Positions 291 to 7,927 of a DNA stretch of 64,000 nucleotides are shown piece by piece. Both the position numbers and the translations under genes were made by a program. The stretch comes from Pleurocapsa minor GSE-CHR-MK 17-07R (GTDB lineage: Bacteria > Chloroflexota > Anaerolineae > Aggregatilineales > Phototrophicaceae). Where the stretch lies: the NCBI GenBank assembly GCA_019359125.1, contig JAHHHY010000001.1, positions 868,001-932,000 of the forward strand, in the 5' to 3' direction. The notes beneath the pieces were generated by a model. That model was given only the letters and a program-made list of their open reading frames with translations. It ran no database searches and was not told the origin of the DNA. How positions within the stretch are numbered: the first letter of the stretch is position 1; every line of letters begins with the position of its first letter.

Positions 291-1124
291 TTATGGAATC
301 GGAATTCCGGCGCGGCGCAGCTTGACCTCGATGCTGTTACGCGTCTCGCGCATGCTGTCGTCCAGATAGGGCAGCGCCAGCCAGATATTCATAATGCCAA
401 ACAACGCGCCTGTCAGCAGCCTGAACACAGGCAGCGTCTCACGTGGAGGCCACAGGTTAAAGGGCGGATAGCCCAGCAACTGGCTCACACCGTCGATGCC
501 AATGGGCCCGATGCCCAGAATCAGATACAGCCATATGGGGACTGGCCGCAGGCGGCGGCGCACGACGGGCAGCGCATACAGCATCACCCCGCCAAACATC
601 GCCAGATAAATGGCCACGTCGCGGGCGCACAGCGTCGTCTTGTAGCCCATCGCCTCGCTGCCGACGAAGTCTTTCGAGGCAAACTGATACCACGGCGTGA
701 ACGTCGAGGCCAGGTCAGCTTCCGTCACCGATGCCGGCGGCGCGCCGCCGTTCGACCGGCGATAGTAGAAATCATAACTGGACAGAAACTCCGGCTCATT
801 GACCACGACCGCTTCAAACGGCACCGTGTCCATGCCCGCCACCGCACGCGGATAAGTGGCCTGTGGGCCAAACAGCCAGAGCGAGCGAAAGCCGAACTGA
901 TGGCAGAACGGTGCATAGAACGTATACAGCGCGCGGGCGGGCCCGGTCAGGCCTATTTTCATTAGGACAGGTGTGATAATCGGCAGCGTGGAATACAGGC
1001 CTAGCACCACGATCATGATGCGTAGCCAGTGCTTCGTCGTCCACAACAGGCCCTTGTTCACGCGCACGGCAAATGGACGCGGCGGGCGCGGGGGCTGCGG
1101 GGCAATCTGGGGAGTCTGCGTCAT
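291..1124 (-). CDS. DUF2085 family membrane protein
   Basis: Predicted polytopic membrane protein of 277 residues. The family is recognised by the segment FYAPFCHQFGFRS near residue 90 and a second motif CARDVAIYLAMFGG near 165, the two Cys-containing signatures of DUF2085 proteins, whose function is unknown. Hydrophobic segments occur near residues 33-55, 165-185, 195-215 and 235-255. Its ATG overlaps the TGA of the TlpA-like gene upstream (ATGA), and an AGGA site lies 6 bases before it, so the two are probably translationally coupled. The position behind CcdA and TlpA hints at a role linked to thiol redox or cofactor handling, but that is inference only. Confidence 0.8.
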   Translation of the reverse strand: MTQTPQIAPQPPRPPRPFAVRVNKGLLWTTKHWLRIMIVVLGLYSTLPIITPVLMKIGLTGPARALYTFYAPFCHQFGFRSLWLFGPQATYPRAVAGMDTVPFEAVVVNEPEFLSSYDFYYRRSNGGAPPASVTEADLASTFTPWYQFASKDFVGSEAMGYKTTLCARDVAIYLAMFGGVMLYALPVVRRRLRPVPIWLYLILGIGPIGIDGVSQLLGYPPFNLWPPRETLPVFRLLTGALFGIMNIWLALPYLDDSMRETRNSIEVKLRRAGIPIP

Positions 1125-1693
1125 ACATTGTCCTGAAGGGTGGTTATAAGTTGTTGAAGCGTCGTCGGGCCAAAGTATATCGCATCTATGGCGCCCTCTG
1201 GCGAAATCACGAAAGTCGTCGGCTGCCCGCGAATAGCAAAATCCCGCGCTGCCTGCCCGTCCACATCAAACAAGACGTCCAGCGTCAGGCCACGGGCGGC
1301 CAGCCAGGCCATCGCCTGGGCGGGCGGCTCTCCCACATTGACGGCCAGCACGCGCACGTCCGGGCGGCTGTCGGCAAGCGCCTGAAGCTCAGGCATTTCG
1401 ACTTCGCACGGGACGCACCAGGTCGCCCAGAAGTTGATCACGACCGGCATCCCGCGCAGCTCAGACAGGCGAACAGGCGGTCCCTCTCTGCCCGGCAGCA
1501 CAAGCTCTGGCGCGACACCGCCGGTTGCGGGCGTAAACCAGCTGCTTTCAAGGCGAATCAGCCCTGCCCCGGACGCGTCACCCACGGGTGTCAGCGCGAT
1601 GATGCCAGCACCAACCGCCAGGCTGATGGCCCCGGCGATGGCAAGCAAGACACGGCGCAGGTTACGTTCCGGCACTGGTGGGAGCGTCACCAT
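1121..1693 (-). CDS. TlpA/ResA-like membrane-anchored thiol-disulfide oxidoreductase
   Basis: A 190-residue thioredoxin-fold protein with one N-terminal membrane anchor (about residues 14-34), so the catalytic domain should face outside the membrane. The active site is WCVPC (Cys93 and Cys96) after the usual INFWATW strand, and the cis-Pro loop appears as GQPTTFVI. Proteins of this group reduce disulfides in apocytochrome c or other exported partners using electrons from CcdA or DsbD. Its start lies 32 bases inside the end of the upstream ccdA-like gene, which makes that partnership very likely here. The cytochrome or other client is not visible in the window. Confidence 0.9.
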   Translation of the reverse strand: MVTLPPVPERNLRRVLLAIAGAISLAVGAGIIALTPVGDASGAGLIRLESSWFTPATGGVAPELVLPGREGPPVRLSELRGMPVVINFWATWCVPCEVEMPELQALADSRPDVRVLAVNVGEPPAQAMAWLAARGLTLDVLFDVDGQAARDFAIRGQPTTFVISPEGAIDAIYFGPTTLQQLITTLQDNV

Positions 1694-2741
1694 TCACGCA
1701 GGCGGGAAACTCACCCAAGTTGATGGTGCCGTTAGACAGCTGCACAGCACATTCTTCCAGGCGATACGACAGGTCGGCAAACTGGACGGCGGCATTTTGA
1801 CTGAGAAGCTGCAACTGTCCGCTGGCCACCAGGATACCGACAGCGATCATGAAGATGCCCGCGACACGTTCAATCGTCGGCAGTGCCTTGCGCATACGGC
1901 GCAAAAAGCCCTGCGCGCCATCCAGCGCCAGCGCGGCGATCAGGAAAGGAATGCCCAGGCCGAGCGAGTAGGCCACCATCAACCCTGCTGCCTGGCCAAT
2001 GTCCGAGCCATTGGCAGCCAGCGTGAGGATGCTGCCATAAATCGGGCCGATACACGGCGTCCAGCCAGCGGCGAAGATGATGCCCATCAGCACAGACGAC
2101 AGCAGCCCGGCGGGGCGTCCGTTGGCGGCATCCATCTGGCGGCGCGTGTCGGCATACAGGCCGCGCTGCAAACGCGTGAATGCCCGCGTCCAGAAGTCCT
2201 CTGGCGTCTGGAATGCATTGCCCAGCACAAACCACACCAGCACCACGGCAATCAGCGGAATCGCGAACAGGATGTCGACCATCGCCCACAGCGACAGGCC
2301 GATCAGCAGGGCCAGCATGACGCCGGTGAAGACGATGCTGCGCGTCCAGCCACGGGCCTGAATGCGGGTGATGGCGATGCCCAGCAGGCCGGAAAACTGC
2401 AAGCCAAAGAAGATAATGAGCAGACCGCCAGCGCGACCGATGATGTCGCGAAACAGGGCAATATTCTGCCCGCCAATCTGAAACAGGAAGGCCGTCGTCG
2501 CCAGGCCGAACACCACAAACACCAGCGTGAAGCCCAGCACAAACGCCATGCCGTGCATCAGGGTATTGATGCGCATTGCGACTGGAATCTGCACAGCGGG
2601 GCCACCAGCGGTCTGTACGGCCACCGTGCGCGTCACGCGACCACTCATATAGCCGATGTATGCGGGAACCAGCGGAAAAACGCAGGGAGAGAGAAAAGAC
2701 ACCAGCCCCGCCAGAACCGCGATGCCAAGCGTCAATGTCAT
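1662..2741 (-). CDS. ccdA: CcdA/DsbD-type transmembrane thiol reductant transporter
   Basis: Carries reducing equivalents from cytoplasmic thioredoxin across the membrane to extracytoplasmic thiol proteins such as the TlpA-like product next to it. The first helix has the family signature LSPCVFPLVPAYIGYMSG (Cys20), and the second half has GWTPCIGPIYGSIL with the partner Cys, as expected for the paired helices 1 and 4. At 359 residues it is longer than the usual 220-250: there is an Arg-rich insert between the two halves (PEDFWTRAFTRLQRGLYADT region) and a C-terminal tail with two further Cys (ECAVQLS and FPACVNG). Its ATG overlaps the TGA of the upstream gene (ATGA), indicating coupling. Confidence 0.92.
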   Translation of the reverse strand: MTLTLGIAVLAGLVSFLSPCVFPLVPAYIGYMSGRVTRTVAVQTAGGPAVQIPVAMRINTLMHGMAFVLGFTLVFVVFGLATTAFLFQIGGQNIALFRDIIGRAGGLLIIFFGLQFSGLLGIAITRIQARGWTRSIVFTGVMLALLIGLSLWAMVDILFAIPLIAVVLVWFVLGNAFQTPEDFWTRAFTRLQRGLYADTRRQMDAANGRPAGLLSSVLMGIIFAAGWTPCIGPIYGSILTLAANGSDIGQAAGLMVAYSLGLGIPFLIAALALDGAQGFLRRMRKALPTIERVAGIFMIAVGILVASGQLQLLSQNAAVQFADLSYRLEECAVQLSNGTINLGEFPACVNGDAPTSAGT

Positions 2742-3646
2742 GAGGGAAACCTTTCGTCCACAGGCAGTGGTAATGCGCTGTCTGCCTGGACCACCTCAAT
2801 TATCGCATCGAGGTGCGTATTTTCATACAGCCACTGGGCAGCCCACATGGGCACATGCACATCTGCCCCGCCTGCTACCGGAATTTCCGGGCGGCCGAAC
2901 GCATTGTGCCAGTAGGCTCCAGCCAGATTCAACCCGTCAGCCTGCATGACAAAAGGCACGACGACGTGCGGCGCAAAGGCTGACTGCGCCTCGGCATAGG
3001 CCATACGCATAAGCGGATACCGGCCAACTTCAGGCAGATGGGACAGGCTGACAGGACAAAATTCGGTCAGCGCAGCGCGCTGCCCAACAGACAGCGTCAG
3101 CGTCGAGCGATGAATCACTATACGTGAAATCGTGGCCTGTTGATTCATCACCCAGCCCGTCCAGTGGGATGCGCGGCTCCAGCCCAGAGATTGCCCATCG
3201 CTGTCGGCCAGCTCCAGCCAGTCAGCGCCGCCCACGTTGAGCGACGAAAGTGCCAGCAGCGGCGTCCCATAGCCCGGCAGTCCTGCCAGTGACGCATGAT
3301 CGTCACAGTAGGACAGCACTGGCGCGACCGGCGTCACCACCCGGACCGGCGCAGGCAGGACGTCGATCGTCAGCTGATCGATATCATGCAACGGCTGAAT
3401 TGTTTCGGCAGGCAGCGACCCGTAAGCCGTGGCCATTGAACGTCCGTACGGCTCTCCATGCAGGGGAATGATGGTATCGGGAAGCAGCAGGCTGCCGTCG
3501 GCAAGCGTGACAGGCGCCAGCACCCGCCCGCGTGAGAAGCGTGGGGCATGAGCGGCAGTCAGCCCAAATGATGGCAGGCGGGCAAAGGGCAAACTGGCAG
3601 CACCGGCCCCAACGGACGAGAGAAAGCCACGGCGCGAAATCGTCAT
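2738..3646 (-). CDS. Tat-exported L,D-transpeptidase-like protein lacking the catalytic Cys
   Basis: A 302-residue exported protein. The chosen ATG gives a twin-arginine signal (MTISRRGFLSSVG then a hydrophobic stretch) and overlaps the TGA of the upstream SUOX-like gene (ATGA). The middle resembles two short SH3-like segments. The C-terminal third resembles a YkuD L,D-transpeptidase: IVIHRSTLTLSVG, then GAYWHNAFGRP, then AAQWLYENT. In active enzymes the stretch after FGRP is S-H-G-C-V-x-M/L. Here it reads EIPVAGGADVHVP, with no Cys and no His-Gly-Cys. I infer a catalytically dead relative, perhaps a binding or structural protein. The family call is moderately sure, the missing residue is seen directly. 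Confidence 0.55.
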   Translation of the reverse strand: MTISRRGFLSSVGAGAASLPFARLPSFGLTAAHAPRFSRGRVLAPVTLADGSLLLPDTIIPLHGEPYGRSMATAYGSLPAETIQPLHDIDQLTIDVLPAPVRVVTPVAPVLSYCDDHASLAGLPGYGTPLLALSSLNVGGADWLELADSDGQSLGWSRASHWTGWVMNQQATISRIVIHRSTLTLSVGQRAALTEFCPVSLSHLPEVGRYPLMRMAYAEAQSAFAPHVVVPFVMQADGLNLAGAYWHNAFGRPEIPVAGGADVHVPMWAAQWLYENTHLDAIIEVVQADSALPLPVDERFPS

Positions 3647-4338
3647 GCCAGCACCGCCGAAGATACTGCCGTGACAGCGGCGTGTGGTCGCCCGGCATAG
3701 CCAGGGGGAAGCGGCAGCGTCCAGCGCGTAAACGCCCCGGCGCGGCCGGTCATTCCAAGATGCACAGCAGGCCCGTGATTCAGGCGCACCGCCACGCCAG
3801 TCAGCCCATCCACCCCGTGAAAGGCCAAACCTGTGACCGCGTGTGGCAGCACATCGGTCACCCAGGCACGCGTCGGCAGTGATGGCAATGCCGGGGCTGT
3901 GGCTTCCTGCACGACAATGCGCGACAGGCCATGCAGCATCTGGCACACAGGCAGGCCAGGCACAATCAGGCGGGCGTCAAATGGTATAGCGGGGTCTGTT
4001 TGGGAAGGGAGCGCGATCACGGCATCCCCCAGCGCGCTGAGGGGCAGCGTGACGGATGCCCCGCTCAGGCTGATGAACTGTGCCGACCGTGCGCTGGCCA
4101 ACGGACGGGACTCATCCAGCAGGGCCGTCACGGGCACGCCGTACCAGGTGCCAGCCTCAAACTGCGTCTGATCATCCGGCGCATGAGCACAGTACGCGAC
4201 GGCGTGGCGGCCAACGATGGGCATCTGCGCCAGGTCTGAGGCAGACCAGATGCGCGGGACATGCACACTGGACAGACAGGCCAGACCCCACTCAGCGCGC
4301 TTCAGGCTGCGTTTATTTGCGGCATCCCACTGACACAT
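3643..4338 (-). CDS. SUOX/YedY-like molybdopterin-binding-domain protein
   Basis: A 231-residue protein resembling the oxidoreductase molybdopterin-binding domain. Features: Cys50 in VAYCAHAPDD followed by TWYGVPVTALL, matching the C-x-x-G-W ... W-x-G-V-P-L pattern that supplies the molybdenum ligand in YedY-like proteins, then FISLSGASVTLPLSAL and RLIVPGL ... SRIVV strands. The last 75 residues (GLAFHGVDGLTGVAVRLNHGP) look like the Ig-type dimerisation domain of sulfite oxidases. No signal peptide is visible, which is odd for this family unless it is exported with the Tat-targeted partner encoded next. No strong ribosome binding site precedes the ATG, so the start is uncertain. Divergent member, and cofactor binding is not assured. 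Confidence 0.6.
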   Translation of the reverse strand: MCQWDAANKRSLKRAEWGLACLSSVHVPRIWSASDLAQMPIVGRHAVAYCAHAPDDQTQFEAGTWYGVPVTALLDESRPLASARSAQFISLSGASVTLPLSALGDAVIALPSQTDPAIPFDARLIVPGLPVCQMLHGLSRIVVQEATAPALPSLPTRAWVTDVLPHAVTGLAFHGVDGLTGVAVRLNHGPAVHLGMTGRAGAFTRWTLPLPPGYAGRPHAAVTAVSSAVLA

Positions 4339-4818: not shown

Positions 4819-5346
4819 TTAACCCATGAAGAGTGTTTTTTCCAATACCCATGACGGTTCCGTAACTTTTCGTCGTTTTCCGTGTTGGTCGACGTACATC
4901 CACTCCCCTGAGTCTTCCCCGTACACGGTGTAGCCGAGCCGCTCATACAGCGCCCGGGCACGCTGATTGGTTTTGGCCACGCCCAGCGACATGACCACAC
5001 AGCCCTGCTCCCGCGCATGGCGTTCAGCCGAGTGAATCAGCGCAGTGCCGATGCCCTGCCCGCGAAACATGTCCATCACACGCAGTGAATACATATACGC
5101 GCGCGCGCCATGTTCCGGACGTTCACCATTATGGAAAAAGACAAAGACCTGCCCGATCGGAAATCCGTTACATACCGCCAGCAGCATCAGCCGCTCACCA
5201 CGCTGCTGCTGCTGAAACGTGCGCCAGAACACGCGCCTGTATTTGGCATAACGGCCGTACCATTCCAGCAGCGGCAGGTCCTGCGCCACAGCACGCCGAA
5301 TGACAATGGGCAGCGCGAGCGTTAATTCCTCACGCACGGGGATCAT
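4819..5346 (-). CDS. GNAT family N-acetyltransferase
   Basis: A 175-residue acetyltransferase of the GNAT fold. The acetyl-CoA pyrophosphate loop RGQGIGTALI follows the strand YMYSLRVMDMF, and the C-terminal part has the typical NQRARALYERLGYTVYG segment. Substrate unknown. The ATG is preceded by AAGGA at 7 bases and lies 17 bases inside the 3' end of the upstream tRNA nucleotidyltransferase fusion gene, so the two share an mRNA. Placement with a tRNA-maturation enzyme leaves open an RNA or protein substrate, but nothing in the sequence decides it. Confidence 0.88.
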   Translation of the reverse strand: MIPVREELTLALPIVIRRAVAQDLPLLEWYGRYAKYRRVFWRTFQQQQRGERLMLLAVCNGFPIGQVFVFFHNGERPEHGARAYMYSLRVMDMFRGQGIGTALIHSAERHAREQGCVVMSLGVAKTNQRARALYERLGYTVYGEDSGEWMYVDQHGKRRKVTEPSWVLEKTLFMG

Positions 5347-7927
5347 CGCACCATCCTTCAGCCACTGCCTGCTTCACAAACGAGATCTCATCTTCCTGCG
5401 ACTGAATCTGCCCGTCCAGGCGATTATCCCGCAGGGCATCCAGCAGCCTGCGGATACACGGGCCAGACGGGACGCCTGCTGCCAGCAGGTCATTGCCGTT
5501 CATGCCCGGCCGCACGCGATGGCCCTTCTTCTGATACCAGGCGATACGTTCCAGCACCAGCGGCTCATGCAGAAACACGAATGACGCATTCAGCGACGCC
5601 TCGCTGAATCCACGCAGCAGCCCGGCCACCTGGGAGGGTTTCAATACAGGATCCATCAGGGATGGCGCAGTTTCGCGCAACGTCGCGGCATCCACCAGCG
5701 ACTGGCCCCGGCCCCGGCCCATCAACAGCGACTCCGTCAGCAGGCGCACAACCTGCGGAGACAGACCAGACATCCACACGTGCCACAGCAGATCAGCCGT
5801 GACGACCTGAGGTGCCCTGGCGCGCTCAAACAGCCGTGCATGCCGCTCATCAAATTCAAGCTCCGGATGAATCTGCTGCAGCACGCCCATCTCATCCAGC
5901 AACCGCAGTCCTGTTTCCGGCTGCGCTTCTTCCAGCTGATAGGTCAGTTCATTGCGCACGCGCTCGCCCAGCACCTTCGTGACGAAAGGCACAGCCCCAT
6001 GCAGCAGCTCCAGCGTGCGCGGTTCAATCGCAAATCCCAGGCGCGAGGCAAATCGCACCGCGCGAAAAATGCGTGTCGGGTCATCGACAAAGCTGACGTT
6101 GTGCAGGATGCGAATCAAGCCAGCATGCAGGTCATCCACACCGCCTGCATGATCGACAATCTGGCCAAAGCGTGACGGCGGAGACACATGCATCGCCAGT
6201 GCATTGATGGTGAAGTCGCGCCGCCGCAGGTCCAGCTTGATCGATCCTTTATACACCGTCGGCAGGCGGGCCGGCTCGGTATAGTATTCATTACGCGCGG
6301 ATACGAAGTCGACAGTCGAGGCAGAGCCGACGGGTTGCGGCAGCGTCCACACGGCCGTGCCGAAGGCGTCGTGCGGCATCACGCTGCCGCCATGCCGTGC
6401 AGCGACCAGATTCGCAAAGCCGATGGCATCACCTTCGATGACGAAATCCAGGTCCAGATTGGGGCGCTTCAGCAGCAGGTCGCGCACCACCCCGCCCACC
6501 AGATACACCGTCACTTTCTGCTCAGCGGCCAGCTTTTGCACCCGCTCCACCAGCAGCGCGGCATCCAGCCCCAGCACCTGCTGCAAGTCTGGCATGGTGA
6601 GCTGCGGCGGCCGCGCCTGCGCCCCTTCCCGCGTGCGCACCCAGTGACGCATCACGTCCGTGCGCGTGACGATGCCCAGCAAGTGCCCGGCCTCGTCCAC
6701 CACCGGCACCTGCCCGATGCCCCGATGCACCATCAGGGCTTCCAGTTCACTCAGCGTGGCCGTCGGGCCCAGCGTGATATCCCCGGTCTGCATGATATCG
6801 CGCACGCGGGTGGCCAGCAGCTCATGCGACGCGATCCGGTCCGCGTCACCGCGCACCAGTAGCCCGACCACACGACCGTCAGCGATAACCGGGTAGCCTT
6901 CGTGGCCGATCCGGCGCATATTGAGCAGGATTTCCGATACCAGCACGTCAGCATCGACAGTATGTGCGGAATTCGACATCAGATCGCGCACGCGCACGAT
7001 CCCGTCAGACAACGCAATCATCGCCCCCGTCTCAGACCACACCTGCGTAACCAGGGCCTCCAGGCTGTGGCCGCGAATCACCGCAGCTGCCGCACGCGGA
7101 TGTCCGCCACCGCCCAGCGCCGCGGCCACGACACCCACATCGACGGCATCGTCACGCGAGCGCGCCACGAAATTGGTCATCTCAGGGGAAGAAACCAGCA
7201 GGAAAATCGCGGCCGGGTCGAAGATATCCATCAGCTTGTGGGCGATATTTTTAAGTTCCGGCATCACCTGCTCGGTCACAGCCGTGCCCACGATGACCGT
7301 GAATCCCTCAATGACCCTGGTTTCGGCGCTGCGGATGAAATGCTCCAGCAGGCGGCTTTGTTCCGGCGTCAGCGGGGGCTCCAGAAAGCGGCGCACCGTG
7401 TTCAGGTCGGCGCCCTGTTCCAGCAGCCAGGCACAGGCGCGCACATCACGCGGGGTGGTCGCGCCATAGGTCAGCGAACCCGTGTCTTCGTAGATGCCCA
7501 GCAGCAGCAGGGTCGCTTCAATGGGCGCCAATACCACGTCCGCCTTCTGCAAGCGTTCGGCCAGTAAAGTACTGGCAGCGCCAATCACTTCGCCATCATA
7601 CAGGTCGATACGCGGATCCAGTGTCTGCGTGACCGGATGATGATCGATCACGTGGACACGGGTATATTTCTTGATGCCCCGGAAGGACGGAATCTGGTAG
7701 GTATCGGTGACGATCACGTTGTTGATGCGGCCGCTCGGCAGTGCGTCCGTCTCGACAAACGGCAGTGTGCCCCCATACAGCGCAAGAAAGCCACTCACAT
7801 TGGCATTCTGCCGCTGCGACAACACTGGCGTATAGCCTGGGAACAGGCGTGCGGCAGCCAGCATGGAGGCCACGGCATCGAAATCTGCGTTTTCATGACT
7901 GAGGATGATATTCACGGTCGCCAGCAT
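5330..7927 (-). CDS. DHH-CBS-tRNA nucleotidyltransferase fusion (CCA- or A-adding enzyme)
   Basis: An 865-residue three-part protein. Residues about 1-320 form a DHH/DHHA1 phosphoesterase module (NADFDAVASML, VTDTYQ, VIDHHPV, and GGGGHPRAAAAVIRG). About 320-440 hold two CBS domains. About 470-865 form a class II tRNA nucleotidyltransferase: VYLVGGVVRDLLL with NLDLDFVIEGD (catalytic Asp pair), then DFTINALAM and RIFRAVRFASRLGF. The C half should add A or CCA to tRNA 3' ends. The DHH part resembles NrnA-type nanoRNases or DHH phosphodiesterases, and the CBS pair may sense adenine nucleotides. This architecture is known in deep-branching bacteria. A TATAAT hexamer at 7952-7957 suggests a start about 18 bases upstream of an ATG that lacks a clear ribosome binding site. 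Confidence 0.92.
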   Translation of the reverse strand: MLATVNIILSHENADFDAVASMLAAARLFPGYTPVLSQRQNANVSGFLALYGGTLPFVETDALPSGRINNVIVTDTYQIPSFRGIKKYTRVHVIDHHPVTQTLDPRIDLYDGEVIGAASTLLAERLQKADVVLAPIEATLLLLGIYEDTGSLTYGATTPRDVRACAWLLEQGADLNTVRRFLEPPLTPEQSRLLEHFIRSAETRVIEGFTVIVGTAVTEQVMPELKNIAHKLMDIFDPAAIFLLVSSPEMTNFVARSRDDAVDVGVVAAALGGGGHPRAAAAVIRGHSLEALVTQVWSETGAMIALSDGIVRVRDLMSNSAHTVDADVLVSEILLNMRRIGHEGYPVIADGRVVGLLVRGDADRIASHELLATRVRDIMQTGDITLGPTATLSELEALMVHRGIGQVPVVDEAGHLLGIVTRTDVMRHWVRTREGAQARPPQLTMPDLQQVLGLDAALLVERVQKLAAEQKVTVYLVGGVVRDLLLKRPNLDLDFVIEGDAIGFANLVAARHGGSVMPHDAFGTAVWTLPQPVGSASTVDFVSARNEYYTEPARLPTVYKGSIKLDLRRRDFTINALAMHVSPPSRFGQIVDHAGGVDDLHAGLIRILHNVSFVDDPTRIFRAVRFASRLGFAIEPRTLELLHGAVPFVTKVLGERVRNELTYQLEEAQPETGLRLLDEMGVLQQIHPELEFDERHARLFERARAPQVVTADLLWHVWMSGLSPQVVRLLTESLLMGRGRGQSLVDAATLRETAPSLMDPVLKPSQVAGLLRGFSEASLNASFVFLHEPLVLERIAWYQKKGHRVRPGMNGNDLLAAGVPSGPCIRRLLDALRDNRLDGQIQSQEDEISFVKQAVAEGWCDDPRA

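Follow-up and report, generated by a model that had tools for sequence, protein, structure and literature searches.

The stretch of DNA analysed here (the window: 64,000 nucleotides of Pleurocapsa minor GSE-CHR-MK 17-07R, contig JAHHHY010000001.1, positions 868,001 to 932,000) carries on its minus strand five overlapping genes, transcribed in the order SUOX-like, LDT-like (LDT standing for L,D-transpeptidase throughout), CcdA, TlpA and DUF2085, and these five genes are a conserved unit. With modest confidence, we interpret this cassette as an extracytoplasmic thiol-reducing operon, in which a membrane relay would originally have had the LDT as its client and in which both the LDT-like and the SUOX-like proteins would by now be non-catalytic. 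The presence of a dead LDT together with a weakened SUOX relative suggests that both have been retained for a new, non-catalytic job.

Searches in 151 genomes of the order to which the window belongs gave matches to the SUOX-like protein (P0001) in 39 genomes, to the LDT-like protein (P0002) in 74, to CcdA in 141 and to DUF2085 in 144. An LDT match was found within 3 kb in 29 of the 39 SUOX-positive genomes, and SUOX, LDT and CcdA together in 27; in eight of the 39 neither neighbour was present among the matches listed, which contig ends may explain in some cases. Out of 40 regions fetched from the order, picked mostly for their SUOX or LDT matches, 25 contain all five genes contiguously and in the same order, with gaps no larger than 157 bp (24 from the window's own family and one from family f8); three of the 25 have an LDT that is split or cut short. 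Loci L156, L163 and L164 were taken without an LDT match near CcdA and have no LDT there, and the LDT-row figure of 42/45, obtained from 45 genomes hand-picked out of the 74 with matches elsewhere to the C-terminal part left out, is biased and is not relied on. Variants of the layout occur in other families: in f4 (four loci) SUOX, LDT, CcdA and DUF2085 follow one another in order, with extra genes between SUOX and LDT (MobB among them in the one locus scanned) and with no separate TlpA after CcdA in three of the four; and in the sole f7 locus with SUOX (L154:6055-7978, genome G047) a multihaem cytochrome c gene and two thioredoxin-like genes separate SUOX from LDT, with no DUF2085 alongside. 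A metagenome-assembled genome of the Anaerolineae (L031) holds SUOX plus the dead LDT and thereby assigns the group to the Chloroflexota. CcdA and DUF2085 lie at most 4 kb apart in 108 of the 131 genomes having both among the matches listed, which cover 134 of the 141 CcdA and 143 of the 144 DUF2085 genomes, some of the 23 non-adjacent pairs perhaps being due to contig breaks. The original prediction had named a neighbourhood search as its check and genes scattered in relatives, with an order unique to the window, as the outcome that would tell against it; because the order is conserved in distant families, with variants in f4 and f7, neither scattering nor uniqueness applies. It is this order kept in relatives that goes beyond chance, and not the four-base overlaps between the genes, which on their own are common in bacteria.

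CcdA, TlpA and DUF2085 are, to judge from their sequences, intact and equipped with invariant cysteines. C20 and C230 of CcdA are invariant (39/39), a C-terminal cysteine pair (331, 348) is present in 27/39 aligned sequences, and 26 of the 39 relatives fetched have a CcdA frame with a thioredoxin motif (e.g., L139:5872-7491), mostly besides a separate TlpA; the window's CcdA has no such motif. TlpA possesses an invariant CXXC (33/33, CVPC at residues 93-96 in the window) and a hydrophobic stretch at residues 15-33 that would serve as its anchor, but it does not reach the NCBIfam thresholds set for ResA, DsbE or StoA (59.8 bits for the StoA model, the cut-off being 210). The DUF2085 protein of the window has two cysteines only, C74 (CHQ) and C166 (LCARD), both invariant (37/37), and hydropathy and charge predict four transmembrane segments with C74 and C166 in a 115-residue loop on the outside. 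Comparison of its structure model (predicted local distance difference test score, pLDDT, 93.5) with PDB structures gave no match at E ≤ 0.001, and in the literature searched DUF2085 came up in a single passing mention. The ratio of nonsynonymous to synonymous substitution rates (dN/dS; several of the pairs used in this study have dS above 1) is 0.04-0.22 for CcdA and DUF2085 in pairs of relatives.

The LDT-like protein had been called a dead transpeptidase from the outset, and that description was borne out by its model, which matches L,D-transpeptidases, and by the loss of the catalytic motif. When the AlphaFold model (pLDDT 86) was compared with the PDB using Foldseek, all 50 matches listed were L,D-transpeptidases (best E 4.4e-6, probability 1.00); the match is local, with global template modelling scores of only about 0.3, and a profile of the LDT sequences found nothing in the PDB at E ≤ 0.01. 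Ala242 takes the place of the histidine that we take to be catalytic and Asp262 that of the catalytic cysteine (SHGC), a motif by which P0002 is predicted to be catalytically dead. Among the aligned sequences from the window's order the catalytic His is present in 0/34 and the Cys in 1/34, and in the WHN motif His is kept in 34/34 and Trp in 32/34. R5, R6, F8 and L9 of the twin-arginine (Tat) motif are invariant in 31 aligned rows including the window, the Tat-signal score of P0002 itself being 16.0 bits, just below the cut-off of 16.7. These dead LDTs constitute one clade (SH-aLRT 98) with members from five families; left out of the tree and the residue counts were L161_10994, a frameshifted f6 copy, and L034, a live LDT elsewhere, and L162_2989, a live LDT, is counted in neither the live nor the dead group. 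Where dN/dS could be computed for pairs of relatives it was 0.14-0.44, by which measure the dead LDT in relatives is taken to be under purifying selection. Five further YkuD genes, three of them with a visible SHGC motif, are present in the window's genome, and because of these P0002 is not necessarily needed for LDT chemistry.

The link to a functional transpeptidase is supported one level up, by relatives in four other families of the class whose operon includes an LDT that is intact. A DUF2085 profile, run against 350 genomes of the phylum, matched 137 of them. Leaving the order aside, the 28 best DUF2085 loci all come from the same class, and in 25 of them a gene of the CcdA or TlpA type stands no more than 1.5 kb away. 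In 16 of 19 selected class loci (most of them taken from the 30 best for DUF2085, some chosen for an LDT match already known nearby) an LDT gene lies upstream on the same strand, giving LDT-(CcdA)-(TlpA)-DUF2085; these 16 belong to families f34, f58, f61 and f62, one is without CcdA, and in two CcdA was seen in the scan of the best DUF2085 loci. Catalytic His and Cys are both present in all 16 of these live cassette LDTs, as they are in 14/14 other LDTs. None of the 19 class cassettes contained a gene labelled SUOX and, within the loci examined, the SUOX-fold gene is found upstream only in the window's order. Upstream of CcdA and DUF2085, and near them, both f6 genomes fetched carry a tandem of one dead and one live LDT, a pair that looks like an intermediate; in one of them (G013) the live YkuD domain is part of a 1015-aa frame also matching GAF and SpoIIE domains, and the dead copy L161_10994, which is outside the 34 sequences counted above, is split over two frames, its other piece retaining the His.

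The ATGA stop/start overlaps first noticed in the window are all present (3643-3646, 2738-2741 and 1121-1124), and tlpA does start within ccdA, its longest start lying 32 bp inside, a later in-frame GTG (codon 7) also being possible. The range of 1121-4338 originally assigned to the cassette needs extending: the five genes exist as described, but DUF2085 itself falls outside it. Pfam scores back the family calls for four of the five proteins (Table 1), but the LDT-like protein is without a Pfam match and owes its identity to the structure model.

Table 1. Positions of the cassette genes and their motifs in the window, and of the tandem LDT pair in family f6.
Feature	Position	Strand	Remarks
SUOX-like P0001 (SUOX-fold, PF00174)	3643..4338	-	231 aa; PF00174 28.1 bits, cut-off 24
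LDT-like P0002, predicted Tat-signal L,D-transpeptidase-fold pseudoenzyme	2738..3646	-	302 aa; no Pfam family at E ≤ 1
CcdA P0003 (DsbD_TM)	1662..2741	-	359 aa; PF02683 31.0 bits, cut-off 27.1
TlpA P0004, TlpA/ResA-type membrane-anchored thioredoxin	1121..1693	-	190 aa; AhpC-TSA 84 bits, cut-off 26
DUF2085 membrane protein P0005	291..1124	-	277 aa; Pfam DUF2085 47.9 bits, cut-off 25
Twin-arginine motif RRGFL of the LDT-like protein, residues 5-9	3620..3634	-	
Ruined LDT active site: Ala242, Asp262; WHN 246-248 retained	2861..2923	-	
SUOX-like Cys50 codon	4189-4191	-	Molybdenum-cofactor ligand column
Tandem dead/live LDT of family f6	L162:2204-7797 (G006); L161 (G013)		

Positions 5330-7927 of the window encode an 865-aa protein in which a DHH phosphatase part, CBS domains and a poly(A) polymerase-type part can be recognised by eye, and a frame of roughly that length was seen near the cassette in many relatives.

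Taken as a thiol-reducing operon, the cassette would descend from an LDT-CcdA-(TlpA)-DUF2085 operon with an intact LDT, in which CcdA would carry electrons across the membrane to TlpA, and TlpA would have held reduced the catalytic cysteine of the wall transpeptidase, its original exported client. The LDT would subsequently have lost its cysteine and been kept as a pseudoenzyme in a non-catalytic role, a SUOX-fold protein would have joined it, and the two may now act as a binding or scaffold pair without their original chemistry. Today TlpA would reduce the exposed cysteine pair of DUF2085, and, since the sole CcdA found in the genome belongs to this module, CcmG probably draws on it as well for cytochrome c.

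A number of observations weigh against this interpretation. All of its electron-transfer steps are inferred, and the dead LDT may descend by position from a live cassette LDT, which the tree allows rather than demonstrates, a constraint uniting the dead and live cassette LDTs failing to be rejected (p-AU, from the approximately unbiased test, 0.425). One dead-type LDT among the 34 (L243, genome G007) has no adjoining CcdA. The window's SUOX and LDT are 30-31% identical to those of two same-genus relatives, compared with 63-65% for CcdA and DUF2085, and among the 11 loci fetched from the same genus three (G093, G133 and G088) have a split or truncated LDT. This fits decay, but TlpA evolves fast as well (39-43%, with dN/dS of 0.07-0.37) although its CXXC is intact. 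The window's own dN/dS for SUOX and LDT, 0.35-0.42, rests on saturated sites. In many genomes of the order (those of genus group g6 and others) CcdA and DUF2085 were matched but SUOX or LDT was not, and SUOX and LDT are therefore dispensable for the core. Because cytochrome-assembly genes (PF01578) occur in nearly all genomes of the order, the near-universal CcdA may be serving cytochrome c alone.

Much of this evidence feeds the alternative that survives best, which we nevertheless consider rather unlikely, namely that CcdA-TlpA is a general outward reductant (for cytochrome c maturation or copper-site assembly) with DUF2085 as its partner, SUOX and LDT being decaying passengers by virtue of their operon position. 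Besides the rapid divergence of the SUOX and LDT genes, the broken LDT copies and the genomes with the core genes only, it draws on the cytochrome c maturation (Ccm) context: the cassette CcdA, located on contig C22, is the sole PF02683 match found in the window's genome (26.1 bits in the six-frame genome search, 31.0 in the protein search, with a cut-off of 27.1), where a second CcdA could be missed because the genome is about 98% complete, and a Ccm locus with CcmE, F, H and B, a second PF01578 protein (CcmC-type), an ABC ATPase and a CcmG-like thioredoxin lies elsewhere, on contig C5. PF01578 cytochrome-assembly genes are present in 149 of the 151 genomes of the order, and therefore most of these genomes, 141 of which have CcdA, may need it for cytochrome c. 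Against such passengers stand dN/dS values well under 1 for both genes (0.20-0.23 for SUOX in pairs where it could be computed, including pairs in which Ser replaces the ligand Cys), the single dead-LDT clade extending over five families, and the invariance of the Tat motif and of the WHN His. These weaken the alternative because passengers are unlikely to have retained frame, order and export signal for so long.

The same context bears on the suggestion, made in the original prediction from the lack of a nearby cytochrome maturation gene, that the reductant may serve the SUOX-like or LDT-like protein. None of the five cassette genes is a ccm or ccs gene, and to that extent the observation stands, but the Ccm locus on contig C5 has its own CcmG-like thioredoxin; because the sole CcdA is here and the Ccm locus elsewhere, distance from the Ccm genes says nothing in favour of a SUOX or LDT client, and the suggestion drawn from it is not supported. 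As for the LDT being a client at present, there is no catalytic cysteine left to protect.

Quite unlikely in our estimation is an arrangement in which the two former enzymes would form an exported non-catalytic complex, the SUOX-like protein hitchhiking with the dead LDT through Tat, and DUF2085 would be a new thiol partner of CcdA-TlpA. By pattern, the Tat motif is absent in 14 of 32 SUOX-like proteins, while its RR-F-L residues are invariant in the 31 aligned LDTs, and a 4-bp overlap with the LDT start was found for 8/14 of these as against 2/18 of the Tat-bearing ones (Fisher p 0.008), in rows that are related to one another and that provided only two usable pairs for an independent-pairs test.

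It is highly improbable that CcdA-TlpA feeds a SUOX-like protein still working as a molybdenum enzyme (e.g., a sulfite dehydrogenase or an MsrP-like sulfoxide reductase). The protein is a member of PF00174, the profile of its relatives matches sulfite:cytochrome c oxidoreductase (E 2.1e-41), Cys50 occupies the ligand column, and this Cys is present in 22/33 SUOX-like sequences, 12/33 keeping Cys, His, Arg and Lys together; MobB and the multihaem cytochrome stand near SUOX in the f4 and f7 loci scanned, and MoaC is present in the window's genome, which suggests that the cofactor could be made there. However, in the window's protein the pterin-loop columns of His, Tyr and Lys, residues whose role we assume from general knowledge, are a gap, Pro and Gln, with Arg retained, and a hydropathy scan found no hydrophobic export signal. 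The ligand Cys is missing from 11/33 sequences, with at least five state changes on the tree, and one of the Cys-less proteins (G012) is encoded right by MobB; moreover, the class cassettes are without a labelled SUOX. The fold is the common element with SorA, SoxC and MsrP, the window's protein being short, unsigned and deprived of most of the pterin-loop residues examined. Because these residues and the hydrophobic signal are gone, despite Cys50, an active molybdenum enzyme is unlikely for the window's copy, and possible in relatives.

Two further observations concern the SUOX-like genes. At L150:7073-7576 (G012, family f4) MobB comes directly after a SUOX-like gene whose ligand Cys is Ser. 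The idea that loss of the SUOX Cys tracks loss of MoaC was rejected: MoaC is present despite a Cys-less SUOX in G004, G012, G086, G091, G110, G138, G142, G144 and G147, and was not found in G025, G088 and G102, which have a Cys-retaining SUOX.

Finally, that the LDT-like protein still cross-links or binds the wall via another residue, with TlpA acting on C114, is scarcely credible: the preserved His and Trp of WHN and the occurrence of this remaining cysteine in 20/35 LDT-like sequences speak for it, but both residues of the catalytic pair were lost together, and invariance is confined to R, F, L, P, G, W and H, with no alternative nucleophile among them.

Returning to the thiol-reducing operon, its nearest counterparts are systems of a known kind. 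In E. coli, DsbD with DsbG (DsbC) reportedly protects single cysteines, its clients including L,D-transpeptidases. The likeness consists in a membrane thiol reductase and an exported thioredoxin-fold protein beside an LDT, which in the class relatives does have the Cys; the E. coli genes, in contrast, are said to be scattered and the LDT there is active, whereas here a single operon contains an LDT without the catalytic Cys and, in addition, SUOX and DUF2085. In Bacillus subtilis, CcdA-StoA-SpoVD is a system in which a TlpA-like protein keeps a wall transpeptidase reduced, and both have CcdA, a TlpA/StoA-type thioredoxin and a wall transpeptidase as the protein served; SpoVD, however, is an active penicillin-binding protein and not an LDT, and neither DUF2085 nor SUOX is known to take part. 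The cytochrome c maturation reductant (CcdA with CcmG or ResA) is similar in its CcdA and TlpA-type proteins and differs in that here the Ccm genes are on another contig with a CcmG-like thioredoxin of their own. The window's LDT, having no catalytic Cys, would fall outside the thiol-protected transpeptidase type represented by DsbG-LDT and StoA-SpoVD; those of the class relatives have this Cys (16/16) and may belong to it. For the published background, a short account of DsbG single-cysteine protection (Depuydt 2009) is given in PMC8945050 and the work is cited in PMC3463561, in whose discussion HP0231 is stated to have reduced a putative LDT in vitro, and the CcdA-StoA-SpoVD work is cited by title in PMC3906833.

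The set of SUOX, LDT, CcdA, TlpA and DUF2085 was not found described in the literature searched (by family combinations, pseudoenzyme and Anaerolineae), in agreement with the initial claim that no described system has this membership. What is known is the thiol relay beside a wall transpeptidase, and what is new is the uncharacterised membrane partner together with the retained pseudoenzyme. DUF2085, scarcely mentioned in that literature, is now linked with CcdA-TlpA across several families of the class, and the loci can be arranged in a series that begins with a live wall transpeptidase inside a thiol-reducing operon, passes through the live/dead tandem and ends with a dead LDT that has been retained. 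It thereby becomes possible to test if the LDTs of these bacteria are guarded by thiol relays, and what purpose a retained pseudo-transpeptidase may serve.

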